From Alphaproteobacteria bacterium (GTDB taxonomy: Bacteria > Pseudomonadota > Alphaproteobacteria > Rhodospirillales > Rhodospirillaceae): a stretch of DNA of 64,000 nucleotides. Below are positions 61,217-64,000 of this stretch, piece by piece. The stretch lies in NCBI GenBank assembly GCA_030604885.1, contig JAUVUZ010000002.1, positions 124,001 through 188,000 of the forward strand. Reading direction: 5' to 3'. The notes beneath the pieces were generated by a model. It had not been told where the DNA came from. It searched no databases and worked only from the letters and a program-made list of their open reading frames with translations. The number at the start of each line of letters is the position of its first letter. The stretch's first letter is position 1. The translations under genes and the position numbers were made by a program.

Positions 61217-62809
61217 ATGCGCCCCGCGCCCGCTTCCCCGATGGCAGGCGACGGATTCAGCCAGATTCGGTGGGGCATGACCGCGCATCCTCTTCACCAC
61301 GTCGCCGACGCGGCGGTTTCGGTCTCCGGCGACGGCCGCCCGGTGGGCGTCATCGACATCGGTTCCAACTCGGTGCGCTTCGTCGTGTTCGCCGGGTTGA
61401 CCCGCGCGCCGGTGCAGCTGTTCAACGAGAAATCCGCCTGCGCCCTCGGCGCCGGGCTGCAAACCTCGGGCGTGCTCAACCCCTCGGGGCGGGATTGCGC
61501 CGTCACCGCCGTGGGGCGCTACGTGCGCCTCGCCCGCGCCATGGGGGTGGGGCGGCTCGAACTGCTCGCCACCGCCGCGGTGCGCGACGCCGCCGACGGC
61601 CCCGACCTGGTGGCCGAGCTGGCGCGCCGCTTCGACGTCGAGGTCAAGGTGCTCTCGGGCGACGACGAGGGGCGGCTCGCGGCGCTCGGCGTGCTGCTCG
61701 GCACCCCGGATGCCGACGGCATCGTCGCCGATCTCGGCGGCGGCAGCCTGGAACTGGTGGAGATCGACGGCGGGCAGGTGGACCCGCTCGGCCGCCTGCG
61801 CTCCTTCCCCCTGGGCGTGCTGCGCCTCGACGACATCGAGCGCGGCGGCGGCGAGGCGGCGGTGGACGCGGCGATCAAGGCCGAACTCGCCCATTCCCCC
61901 TGGATTTCCGAGCGCCCGGTGAAGACCCTCTACGCCGTCGGCGGCTCGTGGCGGGCGATGGCGAAGCTCTGCATGCTGCAGGAGAACCACCCGCTCCAGG
62001 TGCTCGACAAATACACCCTCAGCCGCGCCAAGGCGGTGGAGATGTCGGACCTGGTGGCGCGCATCGGGCGGCGCTCGCTCGACAAGATTTCCGGCATCTC
62101 GCGCCGCCGCCTGGCGGTGCTGCCCCACGCGGCGCGGCTGCTCCAGGTGCTGCTGGCGACGATCCGGCCGGAGCGCGTGGTGTTCTCGATCCACGGCATG
62201 CGCGAGGGGTTCTATTACTCGCTGATGCCCGACGCGATCCGCGATCGCGACCCGATCGTCGACATGTGCGAGGCGGTGGCGGGCAACGGCCACCGCTTCG
62301 CCCAGCAGCCCGCGGTGCTGATGCGCTTCCTCGACCCGCTGTTCCCCGAGGAGACCGACAAGCAGCGCCGCCAACGCTTCGCCGCCTGCATGCTGGGCGA
62401 CCTCTACTGGGACGAACACCCGGATTTCCGCGGCCAGCAGGCGTTCTTCAAGACCCTGCGCCTGCCGGTGGTGGGCTTCGACCACCAGGACCGCGCCGCC
62501 CTGGCGCTGATGGTGCTCTATCGCTATCAGTCCTACGACGAGATCCACGACGCCCAGGACGTGCTGGCGCTGCTGAACCCCGACGACCGGGTGCGGGTGC
62601 AGGCGGTGGGCTGCGGCCTGCGCCTCGCGCACATGATCTCGGGCGGCGCGCCGGGAATCCTCGGCGGCTGCCGCCTGATCCTCGAACCCCGGCGGCTGGT
62701 GCTGCGCATCCCCGGCGACGACCCGGCGTTCGACATTCCCGCCTTCGACAAACGCCTCGAACGCCTCGCCCGCCTCCTCGGCCGCGAGCCGGCGATCGAA
62801 GTCGCCTAG
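61217..62809 (+). CDS. ppx: Exopolyphosphatase Ppx
   Basis: Ppx removes terminal phosphate from polyphosphate and may also hydrolyse pppGpp. It has the ASKHA phosphate motif GVIDIGSNSVRFVVF (44-58) and DLGGGSLELVEID, with a helical HD-like C-terminal half. I give the start at 61217, one base after ppk1. ATG at 61277 with GGTGG upstream would give 510 residues and is possible. Its stop overlaps the Rrf2 gene as CTAG. Confidence 0.96.
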   Translation: MRPAPASPMAGDGFSQIRWGMTAHPLHHVADAAVSVSGDGRPVGVIDIGSNSVRFVVFAGLTRAPVQLFNEKSACALGAGLQTSGVLNPSGRDCAVTAVGRYVRLARAMGVGRLELLATAAVRDAADGPDLVAELARRFDVEVKVLSGDDEGRLAALGVLLGTPDADGIVADLGGGSLELVEIDGGQVDPLGRLRSFPLGVLRLDDIERGGGEAAVDAAIKAELAHSPWISERPVKTLYAVGGSWRAMAKLCMLQENHPLQVLDKYTLSRAKAVEMSDLVARIGRRSLDKISGISRRRLAVLPHAARLLQVLLATIRPERVVFSIHGMREGFYYSLMPDAIRDRDPIVDMCEAVAGNGHRFAQQPAVLMRFLDPLFPEETDKQRRQRFAACMLGDLYWDEHPDFRGQQAFFKTLRLPVVGFDHQDRAALALMVLYRYQSYDEIHDAQDVLALLNPDDRVRVQAVGCGLRLAHMISGGAPGILGGCRLILEPRRLVLRIPGDDPAFDIPAFDKRLERLARLLGREPAIEVA

Positions 62810-63228
62810 GCTTCGGCGCGCAGCTTTTCCATCACGTCGGCGAGGGTGACGCGTGCCAGCTCGGCGCGGCGCGCGGTTTCGGCGCGCTCGATGAACTCGG
62901 CGAGCACCGGCTGGATGAAGCGCCCGACGATGCACACCGGGCTGGGCGGATTGGGGGCGAAGGCGGGGCCGTCGTCGTCGTCCACCGCGAGGGCGATGGC
63001 GGCGAGATCGATGGCGCCCGGCGCCCGCGCCAGGCGGTAGCCCCCGGCGCTGCCGCGCTTCGAGCGCACCAGCCCGGCGGCGCCGAGCGCGGCCAGCAGG
63101 CGGCGCACCACCACCGGATTGGTGTTGAGCGAGGCTGCGACGGTCTCGGAGGTGAGGTCCTCGCCCGGATGGTGGGCGAGCACGGCGCAGACGTGAACGG
63201 CTGCGGTGAAGCGGCAGTTGCGGCCCAT
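62806..63228 (-). CDS. Rrf2-family transcriptional regulator
   Basis: A 140-residue winged-helix regulator (residues 1-70, with SLNTNPVVVRRLLAALGAAGLV and GSAGGYRLAR). Only Cys5, Cys14 and one Cys near residue 99 are present. The three-cysteine Fe-S cluster of IscR/NsrR is absent, so it is likely a different, non-cluster Rrf2 protein. GGAGG lies upstream of the ATG. A candidate operator lies at 63243-63259. Confidence 0.88.
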   Translation of the reverse strand: MGRNCRFTAAVHVCAVLAHHPGEDLTSETVAASLNTNPVVVRRLLAALGAAGLVRSKRGSAGGYRLARAPGAIDLAAIALAVDDDDGPAFAPNPPSPVCIVGRFIQPVLAEFIERAETARRAELARVTLADVMEKLRAEA

Positions 63229-63312: not shown

Positions 63313-63782
63313 CGTCATTCCGGACGGGGTGGATTCCCGCTTTCGCGGGAATGACGGGGGGAGAGGCGGACGGCCGCGCGGTTCTATCCCATTCGTCATT
63401 CCGGACGCCGCGCAGCGGCGAGCCGGAATCCATGGGTGCGGCCGGGGGTGGAGTCCCGCTTTCGCGGGAATGACGAGGGGGGAGGGCGAGGGTTGCGGTG
63501 CGCGCGGGAGGAGGGGGCGGTGCGCGCGCGCGGTTCCGCCTTCATTCGTCATTCCGGACGCCGCGTAGCGGCGAGCCGGAATCCATGGGGGCGAGCGAGG
63601 GTGGATTCCCGCTTTCGCGGGAATGACGAGGGGGAGAGGGTGAGGGATGCGGTGGGCGCGGGAGGAAGGGGCGGGTGGGGCGCGCGGTTCCGCCTTCATT
63701 CGTCATTCCGGACGCCGCGTAGCGGCGAGCCGGAATCCATGAGTGCGGCCGGGGATGGATTCCCGCTTTCGCGGGAATGACG
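63313..63782. repeat. Tandem cluster of paired REP elements (REPIN-like)
   Basis: Three full 82-base units (63394-63475, 63547-63628, 63701-63782) lie 153 and 154 bases apart. A shortened copy is at 63313-63356. Each unit is two facing hairpins: CGTCATTCCGG..CCGGAATCCATG and TGGATTCCCGC-TTTC-GCGGGAATGACG. The spacers are G-rich and vary. The rest of the gene-free stretch 63229-63860 holds nothing else recognisable except the sites listed. Confidence 0.9.
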
Positions 63783-63826
63783 AGGGAGGGAGGGGAATGA
63801 CGAGGGGAAGGGCCGGGAAGGGGCGG

Positions 63827-63860: not shown

Positions 63861-64000
63861 TTACGCCGCGTCGGTGTCGGCGATCAGTTCGGCGGTGTTG
63901 CCGGAGGTGACGTCGGCGGCTTCGCCCACCGGCATCGCCTCGGCGTCGTCTTCCACCGGGATCAGCTCGATGCGGCCGTTGTCGGGCGAGATCGCCAGCG
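63861..64000 (-). CDS. 3' end of an unidentified gene
   Basis: The last 45 codons of a minus-strand gene that continues beyond the window, ending TAA at 63861-63863. The visible peptide is acidic (for example IELIPVEDDAEAMPV) and ends IADTDAA. It is too short to identify. Its high-GC codon use and the hairpin after the stop support a real coding end. Confidence 0.6.
   Translation of the reverse strand, partial: LAISPDNGRIELIPVEDDAEAMPVGEAADVTSGNTAELIADTDAA

Follow-up and report, generated by a model that had tools for sequence, protein, structure and literature searches.

Tandem CGTC-tagged REP dimers in an alphaproteobacterial genome and a REP-framed GIY-YIG nuclease as their candidate mover

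The stretch of alphaproteobacterial DNA analysed here (64,000 nucleotides, called the window) carries near its right end an array of four short palindromic units, which lies between two genes that we take to be those of an Rrf2-like regulator and an RNase D-like protein (Table 1). Each unit runs from tag to tag, beginning with CGTC and ending with GACG (4/4), with CGTCATTCCGGACG at its start and GCGGGAATGACG at its end.

Table 1. Features of the array and its surroundings, in positions of the window
Feature	Position	Strand	Basis or remark
Neighbouring Rrf2-like regulator gene	62806..63228	-	transcribed away from the array
Unit 1, shortened CGTC-REP dimer, 44 bases, middle missing	63313..63356	.	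sequence, folding
Spacer 1, short, G-rich	63357..63393	.	sequence
Unit 2, full CGTC-REP heterodimer, 82 bases	63394..63475	.	sequence, folding
Spacer 2, G-rich, copy of spacer 3	63476..63546	.	spacer comparison
Unit 3, full CGTC-REP heterodimer, 82 bases	63547..63628	.	sequence, folding
Spacer 3, G-rich, copy of spacer 2	63629..63700	.	spacer comparison
Unit 4, full CGTC-REP heterodimer, 82 bases	63701..63782	.	sequence, folding
Lone extra tag GGAATGACG past unit 4	63794..63802	.	sequence
Neighbouring RNase D-like gene, 3' end	63861..64000	-	transcribed towards the array; runs past the window (L032 2362-3606)

The initial annotation had described this stretch (63313-63782) as a tandem cluster with a 153-154 base period, in which three full units of 82 bases, each made of two facing REP hairpins, and one shortened unit alternate with G-rich spacers, and the analysis bore this out. 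The units start 81, 153 and 154 bases apart, and TRF placed a repeat with a period of 154 at 63390-63794 (2.6 copies, 91% matches, score 685). The left palindrome of a unit forms a long hairpin in two steps, the right one a compact stem of 8 bp around a 4-base loop, so that the units are heterodimers. The proposal that both hairpins can also pair as one long hairpin holds as well, CGTCATTCC being able to pair with GGAATGACG across the unit. That the shortened unit arose by internal deletion fits the data; unit 1 of the array on contig C12 has likewise lost internal sequence, through another deletion (L041 1061-1128).

Folded as DNA, the four units gave z-scores of -2.8 to -3.5 versus +1.9 for a control stretch, and the minus strand of the array folded as RNA gave a z-score of -6.5. 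Exact copies of CGTCATTCCGGACG occur four times in the 64-kb window, every one inside the array. With two mismatches allowed, two more were found outside it, and since this is about the level of shuffled sequence (mean 1.4), the chance argument for CGTCATTCCGGACG rests on the exact matches. The pattern ATTCCC-N8-GGGAAT is likewise confined to the array, with four occurrences in the window (one with a mismatch), where 0.08 are expected and none of 100 shuffles reached four. Spacers 2 and 3 align to each other with a local score of 100, and local comparison of the array's spacer with its own outer flanks revealed no detectable copy. At the gathering threshold, no Rfam family was found across the array, and an RNase P and two tmRNA models matched elsewhere in the window. 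A search of the plasmid collection as DNA with a 171-base stretch of the array gave no match.

Judged by its sequence, the array is a member of a known, published family, the CGTC-tagged REPs, since its units agree in tag, stem, loop, CCA tail and head-to-head layout with the description by Di Nocera et al. (2013, PMC3733652). All four units have the terminal tag at one end (CGTC, for which TGTC or CCTC is also accepted in CGTC-1). The 8-bp stem that starts with AT and encloses a 4-base loop is present in the right REP of three of the four units (ATTCCCGC-TTTC-GCGGGAAT) and deviates by one mismatch in unit 2; the left REP, with its longer two-step structure, falls outside the strict CGTC-1 stem definition. 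Within the full units, the CCA tails stand head to head (GGAATCCA / TGGATTCC, with TGGAGTCC in unit 2) and the tags are outermost. Family CGTC-1 of that paper, which includes dRS3 of Neisseria, resembles the units in CGTC tag, AT-starting stem, 4-base loop, CCA tail, head-to-head dimers, heterodimers and alphaproteobacterial host, but here the clusters are mostly tandem arrays and the left palindrome is the longer two-step hairpin (PMC3733652). The same authors state that CGTC-tagged REPs 'apparently lack a dedicated transposase' (Di Nocera et al., 2013, PMC3733652).

Like other CGTC-1 REPs, those of the source genome are present in many copies. The right palindrome was found with at most three mismatches at 48 places and a wider REP pattern at 51, both reversed patterns giving none. 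The description as REPIN-like therefore stands, the units consisting of two inverted, facing REPs with many relatives elsewhere in the genome. By manual reading, these places group into about 18 clusters, of which about 14 are tandem, which runs against a lack of related elements elsewhere, named beforehand as one observation that would speak against a REPIN-like cluster. Since eight of the 18 clusters are no farther than about 100 bases from a contig end (C12, C13, C19, C24, C36, C38, C43 and C52), true copy numbers are probably higher, and the array types that match in pairs (C13/C36, C38/C52 and C12/C43) suggest assembly breaks inside longer arrays.

Spacers were compared in eight of the approximately 18 clusters, seven of which had at least two spacers and seven a readable flank. 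Spacers of the same array aligned with local scores of 49-154 (7/7 arrays), whereas those of different arrays scored at most 34, and a match to the array's own flank was found in three of the seven arrays with readable flank (the window array not among these). Since, in the arrays compared, spacers are alike within arrays and unlike between them, the arrays grew in place. In the C33 array, units 2-4 duplicate the 3' end of the adjoining gene, and the tandem REP units at L377 649-1171 contain copies of the neighbouring gene's 3' end. Several array edges show runs of bare tags without a hairpin, spaced 17-20 bases apart and reading GGAATGACG or the complement of it (L040 1958-2030, L040 5287-5404, L037 1700-1790, L039 266-306 and 63774-63802 of the window), as if tag and G-rich linker had been amplified alone.

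Across sister species, the array is not a fixed part of its locus. A copy number fixed in all strains had also been named as evidence against a REPIN-like cluster, and the array is absent in five of five sister species that have kept rrf2 and rnd as direct neighbours, the gap between the genes being about 77-132 bases there versus 632 here. A sixth sister (L242) has kept rnd, with no rrf2 detected nearby and one different, weak hairpin. The gap in the five sisters is short and its sequence too diverged to place the joint of an exact empty site; for the single dimer on C16, the best place in sister genomes aligns on the right-hand side only. Within the genus, the REP class of the window is present in 51 copies in the source genome and in 0-1 copies in each of the seven other genomes.

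A candidate partner gene lies in a further REP cluster of the source genome (C56, 91.9-92.8 kb), where a 96-residue GIY-YIG gene is enclosed by two facing CGTC REPs, the next REP array being some 2.7 kb away. At its simplest, this gene-bearing form (CGTC REP, GIY-YIG gene, facing CGTC REP) takes up about 370 bases. The encoded protein matches PF01541 (E 3e-14), no family in NCBIfam and nothing in the phage collection. No tagged hairpin lies within 1.5 kb of the other two GIY-YIG genes of the source genome, of which one resembles UvrC in length. The subfamily was found in two of the eight genus genomes, namely the source genome and G293, of which the latter has REPs of the other loop class; a further genome of the genus (G290, 590 contigs) contains 17 CTTGA-class REPs and no gene of the subfamily.

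The protein keeps residues that would be expected of an active enzyme. The conserved Tyr, Arg, Glu and Asn of GIY-YIG proteins have catalytic roles, and in the class loci described below residues Y7, R28, H32 and E65 are kept in 106/106 and Y18 and N84 in 104/106. The ratio dN/dS was 0.01-0.14 in all eight pairs with dS >0.6 among 11 pairs tried; the three very close pairs gave 0.36, 1.0 and an undefined value and are too near to judge. An AlphaFold model of the protein reached a pLDDT of 95. The nearest solved folds are those of UPF0213, Slx1 and the UvrC N-domain (PDB 1zg2, 6seh and 1yd6), only the first match having E <0.001, and the predicted fold would suit an enzyme that acts on DNA in folded or branched form. 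The partner subfamily shares with these proteins the domain and the residues expected of an active GIY-YIG enzyme, but among the controls tried it alone is framed by REPs.

The association of this subfamily with CGTC REPs is real, of which we are nearly certain. The genome_contigs collection was scanned with the C56 protein and the best 80 of 199 relatives were kept. Their record titles span many phyla; many records are MAGs and single titles may be wrong. Within 250 bp of the gene, an inward-facing tagged hairpin was found on both sides in 45 of these best 80, on one side in 23 and on neither in 12, and seven of the 12 have no tagged hairpin whatsoever. The median distance of the hairpin from the gene is 33 bp upstream and 24 bp downstream. 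Hairpins are 28-fold denser close to the gene (163 in 45.5 kb at up to 300 bp) than away from it (36 in 286 kb beyond 800 bp), and the reversed sequences gave none near the gene.

The second sample was drawn from the class with alignment A1, which retained 61 of 81 rows; 20 rows had been removed by hand as disrupted, cut off, of odd length or near-duplicate, a few without recorded reason. This alignment was run over 289 genomes and 106 of 110 regions were used, taken mainly from the top of the matches listed and hence weighted to high scores; L217-L219 (weak) and L220 (a 10-base placeholder) were excluded. Under the strict rule, inward hairpins are present on both sides at 34 of the 106 loci, on one side at 20 and on neither at 52, and the density of tagged hairpins is 35-fold above background. 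No tagged hairpin at all was detected by this rule at 39 of the 106; of these, 26 were viewed, and most have palindromes with altered tag or loop by eye. That reading is backed by a rule-free test for inverted repeats between the two flanks, which was applied to the 94 class loci with enough flank. Scores of at least 12 were reached at 66/94 loci, compared with 1/94 at 700 bp and 14/188 for swapped loci. Taken together, a tagged hairpin or an inverted repeat was found at 85 of the 94 class loci and nine fail both tests, while neither feature was found at any of 20 UvrC genes or of 14 other GIY-YIG genes, one of these truncated by its contig end.

The boundaries of the similarity and the history of the repeats point in the same direction. 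Between non-syntenic loci, similarity stops within 3 bp of the outer tag at 44/59 left and 35/46 right ends, counting ends where similarity passes the gene and both loci have the hairpin, a result that is partly expected since REPs resemble each other. On the protein tree, the loop class of the REPs (4 or 5 bases, by rule) changes 11 times, compared with 35.8 times when shuffled, and none of 500 shuffles was as low; the tree comprises the 114 of 168 rows with a single class, has few columns, and most of its forks are weak. In RAYT systems, too, the REP type is tied to the gene lineage. Of the 33 records of the plasmid collection that matched, 11 were inspected, and in ten of these the detector found a hairpin no more than 200 bp from the gene. 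At three loci (L141, L212 and L366), genes of the subfamily are framed by other palindromes (CATCCCGAG..., CATTGCGAGG... and CATTCTGAG..., respectively), which points to further repeat families within this system.

Presence and absence of the gene-bearing form can be followed within one operon. Azospirillum lipoferum 4B has a REP dimer, the gene and a second REP dimer between sufB and sufC, whereas the gap measures 87-129 bases and contains no element in A. oryzae, A. ramasamyi and strain B510; the empty gap of the relatives is too diverged to place the joint, and no target duplication or exact empty site was recognised at sufB-sufC or at rrf2-rnd. Upstream of the gene, three tandem dimers are present in Sinorhizobium meliloti Ak57 versus one in Sinorhizobium sp. 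M103. A relative of the protein is encoded in two Neisseria gonorrhoeae records filed as plasmids. In the one of these two that was inspected, the chromosome-size record L359, the gene lies inside a dense cluster of dRS3-like hairpins and is unannotated in the collection's table. At least two REPs of the tested class were found in 31 of the 82 class genomes with a strong gene match versus 10 of the 207 without, counts that are affected by kinship. Nine class genomes have at least four REPs of the tested class without a strong match to the subfamily, namely G277 with 101 and eight more with 6-19. Genome G123 has 12 gene matches; 4 hairpins were counted in 400 kb sampled from it versus 3 in reversed sequence, and no dispersed paralogue-specific REPs were found in that sample.

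The system thus outlined has likenesses to several others. Free-standing GIY-YIG homing endonucleases are small mobile genes for a GIY-YIG nuclease as well, but the partner gene was not seen within an intron and has palindromic ends and gene-less derivatives. With the REPIN/RAYT system ('REPtron', GTAG REPs with an IS200-like transposase), it has in common a REP-framed gene and gene-less dimers dispersed in the genome; it differs in the GIY-YIG nuclease of unrelated fold, the CGTC tag and the lack of a Y1 transposase. The string GIY is absent from the main text of the 2013 paper (PMC3733652). Our literature searches, with preprints and most subscription papers outside their scope, found no link between GIY-YIG genes and CGTC, dRS3 or REP repeats among the papers listed; publications that name GIY-YIG and related terms deal, by their titles and the start of their abstracts, with subjects such as restriction enzymes, fungal mitochondrial genomes, casposons and Tn7. 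As far as these searches show, the novelty is the partner, i.e. a GIY-YIG subfamily framed by CGTC REPs, and an earlier description is possible.

Since the gene is framed by CGTC REPs in many bacteria, its product is the best candidate for spreading the repeats. We consider it probable, from comparison of sequences, that a GIY-YIG nuclease element has CGTC REPs as its ends and that the units of the window are gene-less derivatives of it, amplified in tandem; that the nuclease is what moves CGTC REPs is an inference to which we give the same weight. The window array consists of four gene-less CGTC-REP dimers, which were amplified in place along with some 70 bases of spacer, and these dimers would be members of a mobile family in which the form with a gene consists of the GIY-YIG gene between facing CGTC REPs. 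The GIY-YIG protein would recognise the folded REP and cut at or near the unpaired tag, both in its own element and in dimers without a gene, and would thereby move them. Cuts or stalled forks at the hairpins may then lead host replication and repair to copy a dimer plus its flank, which would yield tandem arrays.

Several other readings have to be weighed against this one. The gene could be a passenger or a preferred landing place, while another enzyme moves the CGTC REPs and these settle beside it or profit from the position, e.g. as terminators. The nine genomes with at least four REPs and no strong gene match would agree with this, as would the location of REPs in general, which according to the abstract of the 2013 paper is mostly downstream of genes (PMC3733652). 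It is rather unlikely, however, as the REPs stand on both sides of the gene, face inward and lie at short distance, UvrC and other GIY-YIG genes show none, each locus has flanks that resemble one another and not the flanks found at other loci, and the loop class tracks the protein tree. A further, improbable reading is that the nuclease serves surveillance or maintenance, trimming REP cruciforms, limiting their spread or making the host dependent, so that it is carried with REPs and moves none. Purifying selection in the eight informative pairs would suit such a role, and so would the Slx1-like fold, Slx1 being a nuclease of branched DNA according to the titles of the solved entries. A maintenance function is hard to reconcile with the patchy occurrence in sister species (2/8), the high copy number in certain genomes (12 matches in G123) and the presence or absence within one operon in Azospirillum (sufB-sufC).

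The idea that the window units are REPINs of a RAYT, i.e. of an IS200-like tyrosine transposase, had been part of the initial annotation, and it is the one part that failed. The head-to-head dimer architecture is common to both, and tandem clusters are known for GTAG REPs too (PMC3733652). Yet Y1_Tnp (PF01797) has no match in the source genome (98.9% complete), in a search that was positive in 5 of 14 control genomes; within the genus, one of eight genomes has a match and that genome contains neither REP class tested. The tag is CGTC and not GTAG, and the 2013 paper reports that no RAYT flanked by CGTC units was found (PMC3733652). A resident RAYT as partner is refuted by these data, a RAYT on an unassembled plasmid would be required, and we regard the whole reading as most improbable. 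Quite improbable, too, is that the dimers are relics that no longer move and that arrays arise from replication slippage or unequal exchange at hairpins. The spacers, alike within and unlike between arrays in all seven arrays with at least two of them and matching their own flank in three of seven, speak for it, but it leaves the association of gene and REPs and the species-limited REP classes unexplained. As a route of array growth, slippage or unequal exchange is probably true and is compatible with a mobile element whose nuclease acts on the REPs.

In a more general form, to which we give a little better than an even chance, CGTC REPs would be the ends of a very small and widespread mobile element, whose sole gene encodes a GIY-YIG nuclease of about 96 residues acting on the folded REP ends, and most CGTC REPs, including dRS3 of Neisseria, would be gene-less derivatives of it. 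CGTC REPs occur across many groups of bacteria, and what moves them was left open when they were defined (PMC3733652). A REP-framed nuclease with conserved active-site residues and lineage-matched REPs makes that question testable, and the arrays offer a case of array growth at REP dimers. If the proposal is true, it would account for the scatter of small GIY-YIG genes over unrelated bacteria, and the REP way of life would have arisen a second time, apart from RAYTs, in an unrelated class of enzymes.
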